From assembly GCF_949628265.1 (NCBI RefSeq), contig NC_088788.1:31916335-31980334 (forward strand): 64,000 nt of DNA. Direction: 5' to 3'. Numbering within the stretch: position 1 is the first letter of the stretch; each line of letters opens with the position of its first letter. The notes below the pieces were generated by a model, which ran no database searches, had not been told where the DNA came from, and saw only the letters and a list, made by a program, of their open reading frames with translations. Source of the stretch: Cloeon dipterum. Taxonomy: Eukaryota > Arthropoda > Insecta > Ephemeroptera > Baetidae. Positions 29,301 through 61,500 of this stretch are shown one piece after another. The translations under genes and the position numbers were made by a program.

Positions 29301-32300
29301 CCCCATTTAATGTAGAATAACATATCAAAATAAACCTAAAATTATTTTTCGTCTCTTTTTCAAGGGGTTTTAATTTTTTACCCTGAAGCCAAAGATACCC
29401 TAAAATTGGCCTACTTTGGCCCAGTTTTCGAGCAGATTTTATGGTTAATTAAGATTTTTCAGAGGCCCTGCGATAGGGGAATGGAACTCATCTCCTGCCC
29501 CGGGGGTGGCTTTTTGAGCTTAATTTAACTTACTCATAACTTTGCGTTCTCGGTGTTGATTTATGTTTTTCGACATCAATAATTCGATGCGATTTAGACA
29601 CTCCTTCGTTAGATTATTAAGATTATTTAAGATTGGAAGCTAAAAAATTTTAAACCTCTTAAATATTCAGCCCTTATTAATTTAAGCATATAGAAATTGT
29701 TGAGAAACACATTTATTATAGCAACCTTGTGTGGATTTGTCTGTCATTGTATACAATACGTTTAACTATTGTTGTGCTGGAACAATAAGATCTCTCACAA
29801 ATAATCTTTGCACCAACCGCAAATGTCTAGTGAGCGCGCACAAAAACAATAATTTGGCGAGTACGCGCGCATCGATGATTCCAACCGCGAGTATCTGTAG
29901 CCGTAAATCTCTCGAGCAGCGCAGGGCGTTTTTGCCAACGCATCCGCTATTAACGGCCCATACAGCTTATTATTTATTTTTCCAAACGAACGCTTTTCGA
30001 CCATCATGCGCCCATAAATCTGCCCACGCTTAAAATTTTGCTAAGAAAAAAATGCGCCCGCCAGCAACCGCATTTTTTTGCGTTTTGCAGCGAAAAGGAG
30101 GGAAATGACGAGAATAAATTAGCATAGCATTAAAGCGGCGCTGATAACTCGAGCCCGGCATCAGCGCATTTTACGCTTGGTCAAATCCACCGCGAATCAG
30201 ATTTGCATATCCGCAGAGCCGTGAATCAAAGGCAAAAACTTGTCGCCGACGGCGGTTCTTGCGAGGCAGAAACGAAAGCGGACCCGCTTTTCACGCGCGA
30301 CAAATCCCAAGGAAGATCAAAGCGGCAATTCAAATGAGAATAGCATCCCGATGTAGAACACCATGCATATATGTGATCTCGAAGCACTCTGATCTAAAGT
30401 GGTGCTGGTAATTGTGTTTCAGGACAAGCTGTTGTGCAAGCTGGAGGAGAACGAACCCGAAATAGCGACTTCTCAGGAGGACGAGGTGAGCCCAGTTTTA
30501 ATCTTTTTTTTTTTGCGCCGCCGGCTCTCTGATGAAGGAAAACTTGGCGCGTGTGCAGCCGAACGAAAAAATGTGTATAGAAACGAAATGTCGCACACAG
30601 TGAAATTACAAATGGAGAAATGTGCACAGCCGACGAGAGGACGAACGCGCGACGGGCTGAGAGGCTGGCTGGGCTGGTGCAATGCGGCGTACACGCCACG
30701 TCCTCGCTCGCAGCCACTCTTCGCTCACTTGGAGATATTACTTTGATGCTCTTTTTAGGTTTACTCGCTGCTTTCAATGCTCCTTTACTGCACACAAGAT
30801 TTCGCGTGCGCCTCCAGTAAAAATTGTGCGATTGTGGAGTGTCAGGCTGAGAGGATCCATATCTCTTTGGCACGAGCATTCAAACAAGATGACGAATTTA
30901 AAAAATGGTTTCGAGCGTGAAATTATAACGGAGAGGAAAAGACATCATTTCTTTTGAAAGCAACTCTTTCGGTGTAAACGACATACTTCAAAGACGCGCT
31001 GAAAATTATTCCATGCATATTTTTAAAAGGAAAATGTGTGAAAAAAAAGAAATTTCCAATGCTTCAAAAATAAAAATTTTTGTTATTTAGTCAGACTCAC
31101 TTTTTGCTGTAGAAATATATTTTTATTTGAAAACTGCTGTACGCCTTGTGAGCGAACAAGACAATAAATCAGCAGAAATAAAAATTTGAGTTGTTTTTCG
31201 AGGGGCTCCAAAGGTGATAATTTCAAATGCAGCACAACAGTATAAAAATTGCGTGATTCATGTGAGCTCATTTCGTGTCTAAAAATAAATAGGACGTAGA
31301 GAAACAAATAATTCCGATCGTCTCTCATTGCCAAGCTTGAATAATGATTTTTGTTTCAGTGCGTGATCTGCGTGAACGCGCGCGCCACAATGCAAACATT
31401 CCCGTGTGGCCACCGAGTGGTCTGCCGCAAGTGCTTTGTCAAGACGATTCAGATGGCCGTGTCGCAGCGGCTTCTGCCCCTCCGATGCGTCATCTGCAGG
31501 TCCAAGATCCTGCGGCTCAAGCAGGGGGTCACCGGTGGAGTCACGCTGCCCACGTCTGCCTCACAGTACTGCATGGGGGTGGGTGGTAAGTGGGAAGTGC
31601 CCGCCTCCGCCTCGCTCTACTCCATGTCTTCGGGAACTTCTTCACTCTCAGGTAAATAAAACACTATTACACACTTTTAAAAGATGTCGTCAGATTCTCT
31701 AGGTGTGTTTGTTGCATCATTTAAATATTCCTTTCCTCCAGGAATGTCTTCCGTGAGTTCCGCGACCAACAGCAGCGTCAGCTCGACTCGCTCCAGCAAA
31801 GCCTCCACTTCTTCGAGCAGCAGTGGGCGACAATATGTTTACCGACAGCCAGCGGGCGCCTCCCTAAAACGGTCCCAAACGCACCAAATGAAAGTGAGTT
31901 TGATTTTCTCTCTGTATCTGGCATCCGTCATCTCAATTCTGCTGAGCGCGGCTCTCTGCACTCATCTGCTGGGAAAATATTGACTTATTTCCCGGGCCGA
32001 ATGAAATTGCGTTTTCCTGCCTAATGCTTAATCTCCCCTCTTCATAATTAAAACTGATGGCAAGACTCGGATAGTAAGAATGAGCAATTAACTTTCTCCG
32101 CTAATGAATATCTGCGCTGTTTTGCAGATGCGACTGCAAGAGTACAAAGACCCGTCGGCGGCGAACTCCTCTTCAGGGCCCTCTTCCCTGAACAGTGTGG
32201 CGAGCTCGTCGGCAGGGTCGACCTCAACGGGAGGACGCCTGCCACCCATTCAGGAATTCCAGCGAGAATTCAGAGCCAGCAGAGAAAAGTCGAGCGGAAA

Positions 32301-35965: not shown

Positions 35966-38815
35966 TTATTGCTCCTGGCTGTTTTCACCACTGGACGAAT
36001 CATCGTCATCAGCTTGGCGCCTGAGAGTTAAGGTTCCATTTGGTAAAAAAATGAAATAAAGTAAATCGTACTTACTTGTTGTATTGCGCCTGATGGGGGA
36101 TGGTGCCAAAGGAGGTGCTGGCGATGGAGGAGCCTGCAAACTGCTGGCCATCAGGGCGCTGGCCGTTCACACTGCAACGAAAAGCAATACAATAAGCCAA
36201 AGCCACGGGTAAATTTTGTTGTTTACTTGGTGCCAGTAAAGTAGGTGCTTTGACCGGGAAGCGACTCTGATCCACTGAAGGACTCAACGGTGTAGGGCCT
36301 GAAACTCTCAGTGGTGCCGAAAACATCACGCCTGAAAGCAATAAAGAGAATTGACCACATTGCAAACTTCGCAGAAAACAGTTTGGCGGGAGAACAGGGC
36401 AGTTATGAGAAATTACTGACCTGAATCTGGTGGTGGTGGCTTTGGTGCCCTCAGTAGCCTTATTGGTAGCAGGGGTGGTTCTGCGGAGGGGTCTTTGGAA
36501 CACGGTAGGACGGTTTAACAGCTGGCGGTTGGAGTCATCATCATCATCCTGGCGCTTTACAATGGGCCTCACGCTTGAGCTAGAGTACACATCTGGGAGA
36601 GACTTGGATGTGGTGGAAGATGTATCACGCCTGAGAATGAGAAATATGACAATTTTCATGAAAATATTTTTATATGTGATGAGCTATATCTACAGAGGAA
36701 TTAGAAGAAAATTATGAAACTTAAAGTTAGTTGATCAAACTGCACTTAACGCCTCGATTCTAATTGCTTATTTTTATGAATTCTTTTTGGAATACGCAAA
36801 GGCTTTTGAAGCAATAAATCCGTTTTAAACTAAATAGAAACAAAATATCAGAAAAATTACTTGAATTTGGAGGCTTCGGTGGTGGTGCGGGTAGCCCTAG
36901 TGGTGGTGGAGTCGCTGCTGGGGGTGGTAGTGGTGGTCCTGCGGAAAAGGTTGGGGCGGTTGCTCGGCCTTGGGATGAGGGTGGGCCGTTGCTGGAACAG
37001 TTGGCGGTTGCCGTTGTCGTCATCAGCTTCCTCTCCGGAACCAGAGTCAAGAGAAAGTGGGGCCTGGCGCTTGTTCTTGTGCGAGATGCTCAAGAAAGGC
37101 TTAGCCTCGGTGGTGGACGGTCCGTTGTAGAGAGGCTGAATTGGGGCGACGATGGTGGTGGAGGACTCACGCCTAGTTGCGTTTAATATTACAGTCAGGT
37201 TTGCAAGCGACAATTAAATATTCAGTGTTTACCTTTGGTGGGTGCTTTAGATTTTTATTTAATTATATTTTAATTTAAAAATTTGTTTTCTATTTGATTG
37301 AGATTTATTTTGAATTAATTGCAATTTAACAGTACTCATTTTACATATTTTCAGCATGGTTAAGTGTATTATGATTGCGTGGCGGTGGAATTCTTTATAC
37401 ATGTTTGCTAAATTCAATAAGGCTCTCTAGTATACATAATCATCCACATCGACGACTCCCTCACTCGAATGATGTTGCCTGACATCAAAAGCAACCAATT
37501 ACTTTGCAGGACATGAATCATTTCCTATAAATACGCGTCATTAGGCGCCCCATTTTTAAGGAAACTTATTTTGACGCATGCTCAAGTTAGGTTTTAAATT
37601 TAAATGTTGTGTCCACTTACTTGTTCTTAGGGGCAGCGGTGGAGGGGACCAGGGGCTTAGCTCCAAGACTGGGAGAGCCAGTGGCGATGACCTTGGCGGT
37701 GGTGGCTTCGCGCCTATCAAATAAAAAAAACTATAAATAAATTGAACTTCAACCCCTTCATTGGCAGTACAATTCACGATGAGCAACGGTGCTGGAGACA
37801 ATGGGTAGCTTGGCGGTGGTAGCTTCCTCACGCTTGTTCTTGGGAGCAGACGTGGAGACAGAGGAAGAAGCCAGAGAGCCAGGCAGGACAACAGGCCTCG
37901 GAGAGGTGACATCACGATTATCGCGCCTGAAGCAGCAATCAAATAGAATAGTACTTTTATTAACCGAGTCCAAAACTTATCACTAGAATTAATTTTGTAC
38001 CAAAACCTGTACCTTGGTGGCAGGGTGGAGGCAACCGCAAGAGGCTTCACAGGCGAGTTGGTAACCTCACGGGTATTACGGGTGGAAGAGGGAAGCACGG
38101 TGGTGCCACTCAGGGGAGAGCGAGCAGCGGCCTCTTGGTCATCGCGACTGAAAATAAATTCACCACAAGGGTAAAAGGTGCGCGCGGGAAAATGCAACGG
38201 TTATCCTTACATGAAACGTCCAGCGGTAGTTCCAGTAAGGAAGTTGGGGTTTCCTTGAGGAATGAACACTCCAGCAGAGCTGCTGGAAGGAACAAAAATA
38301 TATTCGAAAGATGTTACGGAGAAATTATTGAGTAAAATCGTGTGAAAAATGTATTAATTTCAAATAATTTTCCTAAGATACCAGATTTTTGTCAAAATTT
38401 TAATGAACATCAGGGCAGATGGCAGATAAATTGCAGAGTAAAATTATATCACGATTGAAGCAAAATCAATTTTTAAAGACGATTAATAATTAAACGCCAA
38501 AACGTGTACAAAAAATCAGCTAGCATATTTTTTCCTATCTTAATTCTACTAAACGTTTACCAAAAATTTAAAGAATAAAGTATAGTTAACACTCACCCTG
38601 GTCCTGACGATCCACCGAGGGGCTTCACAGGCTCAAAAGACGAGGAGCCAGCTCCGAAGGAGGGCCTCGAGGTAGGCACATTATCTGCAGGGAAGGCGTG
38701 GGCACAGATGGCACAGGCCAGCAACAAACCTACCGCAATCTGAAACGCAAACAGTGTCAAGTGAGGTCCATCAAGAGCTCAAGAGACTATTGCTGCGTAC
38801 CTTGGTGTGAGCCAT
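35966..38815 (-). CDS. Secreted, multi-exon, polybasic-site-rich protein (463 aa), family unknown
   Basis: Coding exons in order are 38801-38815, 38597-38739, 38211-38282, 38013-38147, 37771-37926, 37621-37713, 36861-37172, 36421-36630, 36227-36331, 36076-36171 and 35966-36020 (total 1392 nt). MAHTK is followed by a hydrophobic stretch ending CAHA, a clear signal peptide (about 20 residues). The rest is low-complexity, rich in Ser, Thr, Pro and Lys, with no Cys seen after the signal peptide. Basic sites recur: KNKR (three times), KFKR, IVKR, RFRR, YNKR and several RR. Three KR-Q sites precede acidic runs. Two blocks with DDD...NRQL...RPT...RRTT (exons 7 and 8) are internal repeats. It could be a precursor cut by furin-like or prohormone convertases, or a cuticle or egg-shell matrix protein. 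I do not recognise it. A TATA box lies 46 nt upstream of the ATG. The exon 5 donor (GTACTG) is weak and chosen only because it keeps frame. Confidence 0.72.
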
Positions 38816-55568: not shown

Positions 55569-58185
55569 ATGGCTGCCTCCAGGGCCAGCTTTTACCATTC
55601 GTGCCTAAAAGTGCCAGTGCACCCTGGCACCAAAATGCCTTCGCCCGGCTACGAGCGACCTTCTCTGATGTCTGACTCGCCCTCTCCTGCCAGAGGCCAC
55701 TCCAGGTCGTCTAAAATCATGTCCAGAACGTCCTCCGCAAGCTGCCCCCGTTCTAGAGCATCTTCCGCTCGGATCACCAGACCGCCCAGTGCTGATAAGT
55801 AACGCTTTTATTTGGTGCTAATCAAAAGAGGCTATAATTATAATTGCTTGACTAGGTCCACTGATTTATTGGCAGGGCTCGCGCCCGTATTAAAGTTTTA
55901 TGAATCTATTCCCGACTACAATGATCTCAATCACTTGGACGACAAAGACTTCTACGCGCGGGTCAGAGAACTGCGCTTCTTGCAACGTAATTATATCAGT
56001 TCGATGAGGGATCCAAACTCGAACAAAAGCGTGTCAGCAAATTGGAAAGATGGCCTGCAGGTATTTAAAACATAATAGTGATTTTTCTGTCATTAATTTT
56101 GCAAATGTAAAGGGAAGTAAATGCCCAATCAACACAAGCAGAGCGGCAACTCCGTACAGTGCTTCAAGTTCATCTTTGCGCACAGGCAGCCCGTGGGCGA
56201 AAATCGCTTGGGGCCAGATGGCGAATTGCAAAGCCACTGATGAGGTTTTCAGTTCAACTATTTCGTCACCACTCTCTTCCCCTCAGAGAACTAACAAAAA
56301 GCGCCCCCCAAAAGGAAGGCGAAGGGCCAAAAACCCCTCCAGTAGGCAGAGGTAAATTTAAAAAAAAAGTTGTTTATATTTTTAAGAAACTTTCACCTCA
56401 TTAATTGATATCTTAAAATCTTAATCAGCATCAGCAGGTGCGCCTGGCAAGACTCCTTTGAGCTCCTGTCGGAATCCGAGGATGAAATAATAAAACAAGC
56501 TGCAGAAAGAGCGCGCACAAAGAATGTGGCTTGGCGCGAGCCTCAGTTCACGGTGCCAAAACCGTTTCGAATGACCAAAAGGGAGGAGGAAGAGCACCTG
56601 TACCAGCAACTACGGCGCGACCTACTGCTGTCCCCAGCAAGCCCTCCAACCTCCAGGAGAACTCCGTCCCCTGTCAAAGGCTATGAAGTGCCTCTTACCT
56701 CTCGATTACCAATGTACCACGCGATTTTGCTTGAGCAGGAGAAGCGCCGCGAAAGACAAAAGCGGAAGAGTAAGGCCAGGTTATTGGCCAAAGTGAAACC
56801 CTTCAGCTTTGACCTTTCGCCGAGAAGGAGCGTTAGTCCTCTGCGGAAGAACTGGAAGTCACTGCCTGAATTGAGGGAGCTTGAGCACGAGCGTCCATGC
56901 AGAAGTGTGTTTAAGGCGACGCCAATGCCTTGGCAGATATATGGCATTGAGGCAGAAATCAGGCGACAAGAGGAGGAATACTTGAGGTTGAAATTAATTG
57001 TTTTGCATCCTTAAATGGCGTTAAAGTTCAACACAAGAGTTTTATGAAAATCAATGAAACAACTATTGATTTAAAGAAAATAACCAGCGCGCGTTGAAAT
57101 GAACAAAAAAAATTTTCAGTCCAGCAGATGACTTTAAGATTTTTCTGTATTTTTTAAAATTAATTGTAGTGCTCAAAATGCCTTACTTAAAAAATTTTAT
57201 GATTTTGGGAAAAATGATCGATTTTTCTGTCAATTTAGACAACTGAGGAAGCAAGTCCGAGCAGAAGAACTGTTAGCGCAATCTTGTCTTCCCAGCTCGA
57301 TGCAGAAGTACAACAGATGCAGGTCCTTGAGCCCTGAGACGAGATTATCAAGAGCGGTTGGGTTCCTCGATACTTAATGAGATACTAAACTAGCAGTGCA
57401 TTTGGTTAAAGAGTTCAGCTGTTGAAGAGCACAACCCCAGGAAGTACAGGTCTCCTTACGCCAGCACCTCGAACAGTCGCACTGCCAGCAGAGTGTCTTC
57501 GGCCCGACGAGCATCTCCCATCAGGAACAACCTGGCTGCTGTACTAAGGATAGAGTCTTGCAGGTGAAAAATGCTGTCATCACTGCCAACAACTGTGGTA
57601 ATATGAGGTGTCCACTATATCTTCTAGCAGGCGGCGTGCAGAGCGCGAGGCGGCCCTCCGCCTGGAAGAAGCTCGACAGCTGGAAGAAGTGAAGACCAGA
57701 GCAAAGGTGATGCGTCGGCGGCCGGCGTGGAGGAGAATGGCCAACGTCAGCGCCAGAAGGGATTTGGCTCTGAGGACAGAGGTGCGCAGAGAGGAGGAGA
57801 GAAGCAGAAGGGACGAGCACGCTCGACACATGGGCAGCATGATGAACCGGGTTCTTGAAATTCCAACGCTCTTTGAAAGGCAACAGCAGGTAATTTGAAA
57901 TTTGATAGCTCTGGAATTTAATATTTTGTTTTTTTTTATTCAGGAGGGGCTGCGTTACAAATTATTGGAGGCAAAAGCTAAGGAAGGTCAGCGCCGGAAA
58001 CAACATGAACTGCGAAAGCATAGAATAGTAAGTTATAACTAAAATATAAATACTAGTCCAATACAATATTATCACAGAGCTTTTCCCCTGAGGATGAGAA
58101 AAAAGATGACGAACCAGAATTTGAGGGCAAAGACGAAGAAAATAGAAGGGATTGCGAAGAAATAGAAGAAGAGCTGGAACATTAA
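55569..58185 (+). CDS. FAM161: FAM161 family ciliary/centriolar protein (about 648 aa)
   Basis: Coding exons are 55569-55798, 55856-56060, 56113-56351, 56438-56986, 57239-57361, 57414-57563, 57631-57889, 57944-58027 and 58078-58185. Family landmarks appear in order: DFYARVRELRFLQ, FTVPKPFRMTKREEEE, KVKPFSFDL, a FKATPMPWQIYG box, EEYLRLRKQVRAEELL-like helix (split by an intron), a long Arg/Glu helix, IPTLFERQQQ, and an acidic Glu-rich C-terminus. Known role: FAM161A lies on the inner wall of centrioles and the connecting cilium and binds microtubules. Length is close to human FAM161A. The start is uncertain because the frame stays open upstream to 55329; the ATG in AASRAS is chosen as the first near the Ser/Pro-rich disordered segment. 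The acceptor at 56112 and the intron 57362-57413 (TACTAAC branch) are chosen to keep frame. Confidence 0.87.
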
Positions 58186-58541: not shown

Positions 58542-61500
58542 TTAATCCCGAATGTTATCCAGGATCCACTCAGCAAATGAGGAGACCCTTGTGGCTATGG
58601 CTGGCGGCGCATTCAAACCACACTCGTCTGGGCCGTGCGACACGATTCCCAACTGCATGTAGACGGGTATCTCAGTCAGAGCGCCGTATCCGAGCGTCAG
58701 AAGCATCAGCGGTCCACCGGTGTCACCTTGGCACGCGGTTGAGCTCTGGTAAGTTGAATTCGCGCAGATCTGTGTATCTGCGATTTTACTGTGCAGTGGT
58801 TTCACCTTGAATAATAAAAGTTAATACACGTTAGTGTCTGCACAAAGAGCTCAAAAGTTCGAGGGGTTTGCATGTCTATATACCTGCAAACTACCACAGT
58901 CTCTGTTTGTAACCAAGTTGAGCTCAGCCTCCAGCAAAATGGGCGAATGGGGTTTGCTCACTGCAAAAATAAATGTGACGAATTGTGATACAAATCAATT
59001 ATATGGTTAAGCGCTAACCTGAGTGTGTGAGACCCCATCCAATAGTTCTCAGCTTTATCCTTGAATAGTTATTCACAACATCAACTTCTTGTTTCAAGGG
59101 GATGCAAATAGGGCGGATATATGCTAAGGGAAACGCTTTACTTTTAATGAAAGTAATTTATATGGTTGACTTACAAGAAAAGTGATGAGGCAAAGACCTT
59201 TCCAGCCTGACAAGCCCAATATCGTTTTGTGAATAAGGCTTGTCGTAGCGCTCGTGCCTGATTTTTTCAGAAATCTTGATAATTTGGGTAGGTTCTGCGC
59301 AGTCATCTTGTCCAGCGCAGTCCGGATCGGTGTCAATGTCGTATTCGCCGAGTCTCGCATATGTCCTTAAAAAAATATAGAGAGCCAATTTAGAAGCTGG
59401 AAAAAGCGGAAAAGCATATATGATATGTTTAGTAGCTATACAGCAGCCACTTTGCTCTTCCGTGCACACTGCAGCTTTATATGCATTAACAGCTATTTTC
59501 CTCTCACTCAGCCGCATGGAAAAAACAATGAACAGTTACTTTACAATATATGAGATGAGTCGCACGAGTTTTTCAATCGATCCAGTGAATACACTTTACA
59601 ATCTCCAGCGGATTGCGCGCAATACTTTTTCAAGCATTACATTTTATTTCATAGCACTTTAGAAAAAACAATATCACGTAAGGGCACCAGCTCCGAAATA
59701 AAAATAAAACGTGGTGATAGTATAGCGAATGCAGTGCGAGAATGAGAGGAGTAATCATCTGGCAACCCGATTTCAGTATATAATTATTGCGTTGTTTCGC
59801 AAAACAAGAATGTGTAGCGACGAAGACGTTTTGCACGCGTGATGCAATTGGCAATTATTACTATATATACACGAACGCAGTCATTTACACTTCTAGGAAA
59901 ATTGTATAAAACTGACTTACTTCAAATAATAAGTTAGTGCTGGAAAAAATGCAACTTACAGCTCCTGTCTGATACACTGGCCTGCGGTGAGGATGTATCT
60001 CTTGTTAATCACTGAGCCACCACACATCATTCTGAAATTTTTTCCTGTGGACAAATAAAAACCAAACTTGGAAATATTTCTTAGTAAATGAATAAAGGGC
60101 CCGCTAATTTTCTGGAAATAAAAGCTTAGCCACGCAGGAATGTCAGAATAATAATAAAAAATACCTGGTCTAAGCTCTCCAAGCTGTGCCACCCAGGGGT
60201 ACTCGCCAAGGGAAGCTGTCTCCACGGTGCCGTGGATGCGTTCGGTGCTTTCGTCGGCGTTGCGACCGCATCGGTCCACTGGCAGCAGCTTGATGTTGGG
60301 GTGGCGCATCAAATCTTTGGGCTGCGTGATAATGGGTTGAGTGATGGATTGCACAACGTTTTTCTGGGGGAAATTGATAGGACCGCTGTGTGCAGAGTTC
60401 ACCAGGTTTGACCCAGGGTACAAACTGGACGACGGTGGCAGGTTGCTGGTGCTGCCGAATGAAACCACCGGCTGCTCGCGATCAGAGATGCGCACGTCGG
60501 TAACGTTTTCTCGAAGGTATATCGCCGGTGATTTATTGTTTGGCGCTGGAGACAACAACGCGTGGGCTCCAACGTGCGACCCTGTCCTGTGAAGCGTCAT
60601 CTTTTTTATATTAAATATTTTACTTCCCAGCATTTTTATCGGATTATCTCTTTTGAAATGAGAGTGAACAACCCGCGAAAAATCCGTGTCCCAATAAAAT
60701 TGCGAACGCCGGTTCGAGGAAGCCCAAGCTATTTGAGCACTTCGAGTTACTGAAACTATATTAACTACCTTTTGTCATCTCTGAAATTGGGCAGCCAATT
60801 AGTAGATCCCAGAAATGCTCAAATATCTCCCATTGCAAAAATGCGAGCCAAAGGAGACTTCGAAAAAGATTATAAATAATAAAATTCTCCTTAAAAAAAA
60901 AATATTTTATATTAAGAAGTGAAATAACTCTCGTTAGCCGCAATAATTGCAAAGGGCAGAGGGTGGGATCATGATCCCGTGGTCGCAATAATGTAAATAT
61001 TGCTCTACGTCTGAACCACAAAAAAAGGGTAACTCACACAGGGGCTGGCCTCCTGCTCGTCGTGGTTTGCGAACTAGTGGTCGGCATACGCGTTGTGGTA
61101 GCGCTCTGCGGCCTGGGGTAGGCGGTGGTTGGCCGCGCACTGGTGGCGGACGAGGGAGGCTGGTTGTTGGAGGCGGTCACGTAGGGTCGCTGCGTCGTGG
61201 AAGGCAAAGCGCCGAGCGGCACGTTGGTCTCGGCCGGACAGCAGACCAGCGGCCTGCTGCCAGTGAAGCCGCATTGAGGCAGCGCTGTGAGGTTGACGAA
61301 CTGTCCAGCCGCGTTCATCTGACGCGTGCACACGTTGGCTTGGACGCAAGGCCTTCCGCCTGGGCAACTGCCCTGAGCGGCTGCAATTTCGGAAAGAAAA
61401 CAGAGAGATGAGCCTCATGAGCCTTGACCTTTGCTCGAACCGGTGTTGCGTGACATTTTTGCCAACGTGCGGAGCTTAGGCAACAATTTACATTTTTTCA

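Follow-up and report, generated by a model that had tools for sequence, protein, structure and literature searches.

The window analysed, a stretch of 64,000 nt of Cloeon dipterum contig NC_088788.1, carries on its minus strand (38815-35966) a gene of 11 exons, whose GT..AG junctions give one open frame of 463 aa plus stop (Table 1). The joined exons have exactly the length of the model proposed by an earlier reading of the letters (hereafter, the sequence-only reading). All eight internal exons, from 3 to 10, have lengths that are multiples of three and are phase 2-2; they are frame-neutral, and any one of them could be skipped without a frame shift. The sole soft spot of the model is the join between exons 5 and 6, which is uncertain due to its poor donor (AATT/gtactg, with the slash marking the exon border). 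A stronger donor of exon 5 (C/gtgagg) was rejected by eye because its phase does not match that of exon 6, and no other exon 5/6 join checked by eye gave a better open chain.

Table 1. Positions of the gene features within the window, in the direction of transcription.
Feature	Position	Strand	Description	Basis
TATA box TATAAA	38862..38867	(-)	52 nt upstream of ATG	
Initiator-like TCAGC	starts ~23 nt beyond TATA box	(-)		by eye
Exon 1	38801..38815	(-)	MAHTK, then phase-0 intron within the signal peptide	joined translation
Exon 2	38597..38739	(-)	signal peptide up to its end (cut taken to follow AHA), then the first mature residues	translation, hydropathy
Exon 3	38211..38282	(-)	phase 2-2	joined translation
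Exon 4	38013..38147	(-)	phase 2-2; starts RDD; RR at junction 4/5	joined translation
Exon 5	37771..37926	(-)	starts RDN; interior KNKR; weak 3' donor	joined translation
Exon 6	37621..37713	(-)	starts REA; APKNK and EATTAK blocks common with exon 5; KNKR at junction 6/7	translation, alignment
Exon 7	36861..37172	(-)	starts RES; interior KNKR-Q and FRR-T; KFKR at junction 7/8	translation, alignment
Exon 8	36421..36630	(-)	duplicate of exon 7; starts RDT; interior IVKR-Q and LRR-T; RFRR at junction 8/9	translation, alignment
Exon 9	36227..36331	(-)	starts RDV; phase 2-2	joined translation
Exon 10	36076..36171	(-)	phase 2-2; YNKR at junction 10/11	joined translation
Exon 11	35966..36020	(-)	acidic tail RQADDDDSSSGENSQEQ and stop; AATAAA overlapping the stop	joined translation
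Second AATAAA	35851..35856	(-)	possible polyadenylation signal	sequence motif

The searches for relatives returned no Pfam family at E<=10 and no PDB match at E<=1. When the own genome was queried with the whole protein and with exons 8-11, all the 10 matches at E<=1 (8 candidates scored) were the gene's own exons, as were 4/5 matches at E<=10 (4 candidates scored), the fifth one (E=3.3, on contig C4) being treated as noise. As far as this search reaches, the gene appears to be single-copy. Exon 7 alone gave no match among bacterial/archaeal and viral contigs, as expected of collections without insects, and no insect precursor with this layout was found among the open-access titles listed. The absence of a relative in Pfam, the PDB, the own genome and the bacterial, archaeal and viral contigs, together with the weak exon 5/6 donor, would fit a wrong gene model or a pseudogene. 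We consider this explanation very improbable: eleven exons with GT/AG ends stand in one open frame, a TATA box and AATAAA are in place, and the codon choice is unlike that of the neighbouring ORFs. Indeed, the codon adaptation to CPR genes was 0.445, against 0.265 +/- 0.014 for the same protein written in pooled neighbour codons (z=12.9), a rough control in which only 2/8 pooled ORFs reached the Pfam cut-off (RING, FAM161). Taken one by one, the neighbouring ORFs scored 0.246-0.291 in seven of eight cases and 0.415 in the eighth. The gene is most probably a real one. The analysis shows an open chain of exons that splicing could join, and a duplication, of exon 7 and exon 8, in which the dibasic pairs were kept.

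The N-terminus, MAHTKIAVGLLLACAICAHA-FPADN (with an assumed cut point), is hydrophobic and has the plain look of a signal peptide by hydropathy, in agreement with the signal peptide named by the sequence-only reading, and the protein is predicted to be secreted. The mature part (443 aa) contains no Cys, Met or Trp, and Ser, Thr, Pro and Ala account for 44% of its residues. Neither the amidation signal G-[KR][KR] nor an N-glycosylation sequon occurs in it. The AlphaFold2 model of exon 7 alone had a mean pLDDT of 63.6, a pTM of 0.14 and an empty DSSP; this low-confidence fold, from a single-sequence model of a kind that is often poor, is in line with disorder as weak evidence.

The mature protein contains ten dibasic sites: PPRR-DN, KNKR-EE, KNKR-ES, KNKR-QA, LFRR-TT, KFKR-DT, IVKR-QD, PLRR-TT, RFRR-DV, and YNKR-QA. 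In five of them the K/R pair lies across an exon junction (PPRR at 4/5, KNKR at 6/7, KFKR at 7/8, RFRR at 8/9, and YNKR at 10/11), and the other five are interior (KNKR in exon 5, KNKR and RR-TT in exon 7, IVKR and RR-TT in exon 8). Eight of the ten sites are followed by D, E or Q, and the other two by T. Thus, the KNKR, KFKR, IVKR, RFRR and YNKR sites previously noticed are all present in the translation, and those placed at junctions 6/7, 7/8, 8/9 and 10/11, as well as the RR at 4/5, were found in the joined exons.

For comparison with these counts, the mature protein was shuffled 20,000 times. Dibasic pairs were not significantly more numerous than expected (10 observed vs 7.0 expected, p=0.14). 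Conversely, KR pairs (6 vs 1.6, p=0.003) and the [KR]X[KR]R motif (5 vs 0.56, p=0.00035) were in excess, while the strict furin motif RX[KR]R occurred once, against 0.37 expected (p=0.31). These p-values are optimistic, since 3/5 [KR]X[KR]R motifs are copies of KNKR, possibly of shared descent. The pattern of proprotein convertases (basic P1, P2 and P4) is present at 5/10 dibasic sites. The earlier description of the sites as furin-like says too much, since the strict motif fits RFRR only.

Splicing accounts for a part of this pattern. Introns 2-10, nine in a row, are all phase 2 (intron 1 is phase 0), and the junction codon encodes Lys or Arg in 5/9 cases. This is what the splice consensus predicts: at a phase-2 junction, AG/G or AA/G gives Arg or Lys, so that half of the coincidence between sites and junctions is expected. 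In addition, Arg comes first in 7/9 downstream exons, which would have a probability of ~9e-7 if the exons were independent; exon duplication, the evident source of the repeated initial Arg, makes them non-independent, so that the coincidence should rather be taken for a single event or a few. Splicing does not dictate this Arg. As a whole explanation the splice consensus was rejected: it leaves unexplained both the following Arg and the interior KNKR of exons 5 and 7. The exon 5 sequence APKNK-R-EEATTAK runs on uninterrupted, lacking the intron found at junction 6/7, and thus KNKR is independent of a splice site.

To what extent the exons share a common origin was evaluated by aligning 13 exon pairs, with 1000 shuffles each and a global run at lower gap cost. 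For exons 7 and 8, neither the local nor the global score was matched by any of the 1000 shuffles, and 32/70 aligned residues are identical (pS 0.54, pN 0.32; a low pN is favoured here, as the codons were aligned through their amino acids). The two exons are true duplicates. Since their divergence they have kept the initial Arg, KR-Q, RR-TT and the terminal KFK/RFR (two K/R exchanges), and the P4 Lys of KNKR-Q in exon 7 is absent from exon 8 (IVKR-Q). Among the alignment columns in which at least one of the two exons has a basic residue, both residues are basic in 7/7 at sites and in 5/10 elsewhere (one-sided P ~0.04, hand-calculated), so that retention favours the sites only modestly. Both exons have the order KR-Q..DDD..NRQL..RPT..RP..RR, that is, an acidic stretch and then a cationic Arg/Pro stretch. 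None of the other 12 pairs showed strong similarity. Exons 5 and 6 have in common the blocks ST.APKNK and EATTAK (score reached by 20/1000 local and 13/1000 global shuffles), and KRQ.DDDDS is common to exons 8 and 11 (E=0.024). Pair 4/5 was equalled by 14/1000 shuffles and pair 4/8 by 13/1000, which falls short of significance when 13 tests are made, and the nine remaining pairs by more than 70/1000 each; for 4/5, 4/8 and these nine weaker pairs, a common descent is suggested by the phase and the shared first codons only.

Then, we compared the anatomy of the gene with that of CPR cuticle genes. A TATA box is here followed by a first exon of five codons that splits the signal peptide. Among 20 CPR cuticle domains, sampled from at least 94 matches in the own genome, this pattern was found upstream of 12, against 10/200 shuffles and 3/20 reverse strands; several of the 12 matches, being 1.4-2.4 kb away from the domain, may be spurious, and some probably are. 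In Anopheles, according to the data given in PMC2259329, the signal peptide is interrupted in 86% of the intron-bearing CPR genes, with first exons of 3-36 nt; TATAAA is found in 82%; 55% of CPR genes have two exons and the most given is five; and Cys and Met are scarce in the mature proteins. The gene described here resembles CPR cuticle genes in its short first exon, which interrupts the signal peptide, and its TATA box, which are common there and not defining alone, and it resembles CPR and low-complexity cuticle proteins in a mature part without Cys or Met. It differs from the Anopheles genes, as far as they are presented in that source, in having 11 exons, and from CPR proteins in its repeated convertase-type sites and in the lack of PF00379. 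Indeed, the PF00379 chitin-binding domain with its R&R consensus is not in the protein (0 Pfam families at E<=10), which rules out membership of the CPR family.

Taken together, these features point, with somewhat better than even confidence, to a secreted, probably disordered, Ser/Thr/Pro/Ala-rich matrix proprotein that reached its length through exon duplication and is probably trimmed by a convertase. The gene, presumably expressed, would have been enlarged through duplication of phase-2 exons. Its product would be secreted and become part of an extracellular matrix, the cuticle or a similar coat being the most likely one, and the K/R-R sites would probably be cut during secretion by a proprotein convertase of furin/PC2 type, so that a single long chain would yield several shorter polypeptides of the matrix. 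A precedent for a cuticle matrix precursor processed by a convertase comes from the furrow collagens of C. elegans, which in the account of PMC13225626 are processed by BLI-4; these are transmembrane proteins in which an RXXR site, required for secretion, follows the membrane segment. The protein studied here differs from those collagens, as described there, in that it is no collagen itself and offers many candidate sites. Against a matrix proprotein stand the lack of a chitin-binding or any other Pfam domain, the absence of a CPR match within ~1.3 Mb on contig C3 among the matches listed, a codon adaptation lower than that of 19/20 CPR domains, and the possibly spurious promoter matches mentioned above.

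The structural matrix protein that the sequence-only reading had named as its main alternative thus gains somewhat better support, from gene anatomy and composition, and it may also be cleaved. Whether it is cleaved separates the matrix proprotein from the explanation next in likelihood, a structural or mucin-like protein of the matrix that stays uncleaved and in which the dibasic sites would be by-products of composition, phase-2 splice consensus and exon duplication. We regard this as a possible, though not a probable, explanation. Coherently with it, the dibasic count is within what composition gives, Lys/Arg junction codons are as frequent as AG/G or AA/G would make them, duplication explains the repeated exon starts, and half of the basic columns outside the sites were kept between exons 7 and 8, which also weighs against the proprotein reading. 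Against the uncleaved protein stand the excess of [KR]X[KR]R, which a purely structural protein does not need, the interior KNKR without an intron, and the full retention of basic columns at the sites. The excess is a difficulty for the matrix proprotein as well, insofar as it is structural. The view of the sequence-only reading is partly supported, in that the protein could be a secreted precursor with repeated convertase-type sites: dibasic pairs survive the divergence of exons 7 and 8 and KNKR occurs inside exons, but retention is not sharply confined to sites.

The same sites could release bioactive immune peptides from a multi-peptide precursor, in the manner of Baramicin or apidaecin, the likeliest products being the Arg/Pro stretches of exons 7 and 8. 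A precedent is offered by Drosophila Baramicin A, a protein with tandem repeats from which, as reported in PMC8423362, cleavage at RXRR sites produces many peptides. The likeness, limited to what that source describes, is one of design only, that is, a secreted precursor with related units between basic sites; unlike the RXRR sites of Baramicin A given there, those found here are mostly KXKR, KR or RR. The enrichment in [KR]X[KR]R, the D/E/Q or T after every site, and a duplicated unit that is acidic and then cationic and Arg/Pro-rich would all suit such a precursor. Nevertheless, we judge it unlikely, since the strict RX[KR]R motif is found at one site only, and exons 7 and 8 form the only strong pair among the 13 aligned. 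Related units in tandem between sites may be present in the form of these two exons, which are duplicates with the dibasic pairs kept. Moreover, the S/T-rich segments between sites reach 103 aa, and segments of this kind are unusual for immune peptides. Assignment as a proline-rich antimicrobial peptide by motif was not accepted: the protein has two PRP motifs, and 28% of shuffled sequences of equal composition contain one or more.

A bolder version of the multi-peptide precursor would be an arthropod "peptide operon", in which phase-2 exons duplicate without affecting the frame, each junction encodes a convertase site, and whole peptides are gained or lost as exons are duplicated or skipped; the units of exons 7 and 8 would each release a host-defence peptide, pyroglutamate-capable, acidic first and then Arg/Pro-rich. 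We hold this to be a speculative idea, with a small chance of being right.

A neuropeptide or hormone precursor would share with the insect FMRFamide-type precursors the signal-peptide-like start and the repeated KR sites. The allatostatin model PF05953 found nothing, and the FMRFamide and Crust_neurohorm models served as neuropeptide controls instead. In the own genome, FMRFamide-type frames lie on the minus strand at C1:8483654 and C1:8481710, with the repeated RFGR/RFGK cores mostly in C1:8481710. The codon adaptation of the 20 CPR domains was 0.35-0.85 (leave-one-out), with 19 of them above this gene; the FMRFamide-type frames scored 0.30 and 0.42 and the Crust_neurohorm (ITP-like) exon 0.52. 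Codon bias thus fails to separate structural from hormone readings. At fourfold sites, this gene has C 0.52, T 0.27 and G 0.08, the CPR genes C 0.61, T 0.14 and G 0.17, and the FMRFamide-type and ITP-like frames G 0.26-0.71 (14 to 47 codons each), a pattern in which the gene is nearer to CPR. The own-genome FMRFamide-type precursor has repeated cores with RFGR/RFGK ends, unlike this protein, which lacks the amidation glycine and, apart from the exon 7/8 pair, repeats no core. The absence of G[KR][KR] rules out an amidated neuropeptide precursor and leaves non-amidated hormones untouched; overall, we find a neuropeptide or hormone origin highly unlikely. With its TATA box and short first exon, its lack of Cys, Met and Trp, and no amidation signal, the gene looks structural rather than hormonal. 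Of the multi-peptide precursor first proposed, cleavage fits the [KR]X[KR]R excess, and the release of active peptides is the less likely reading, given the missing amidation signal, the absence of a repeated mature peptide beyond exons 7 and 8, and the cuticle-like anatomy and composition.

If the sites of the putative matrix proprotein are cut, the gene would have cleavage sites at phase-2 exon junctions, and exon duplication or skipping would change its products without breaking the frame. This would represent a simple evolutionary route for secreted polyproteins of structural or defensive function. If the sites stay uncut, the gene would be an ordinary orphan matrix protein gene, and a caution that phase-2 splice junctions favouring Lys/Arg can mimic processing sites.

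Elsewhere in the window, a RING-finger exon (zf-C3HC4_3, E=4.1e-8) lies at 31348-31659 and an exon of the FAM161A/B family (E=2.8e-18) at 56409-57014, both on the plus strand. On the minus strand, 59158-59535 holds a serine-protease-like frame (Trypsin E=0.0067, below the Pfam cut-off) and 61034-61414 a Cys-rich stretch, CLIP-like by eye and without a Pfam match. A tRNA scan and a bacterial promoter scan returned none, and a hemocyanin search, with 14 matches, and a composition table contributed nothing to the readings above. In the own genome, a short COX1-like fragment with standard-code stops, below the Pfam cut-off, was found on the minus strand at C2:8963136-8963273, and it is perhaps a nuclear copy of mitochondrial DNA.
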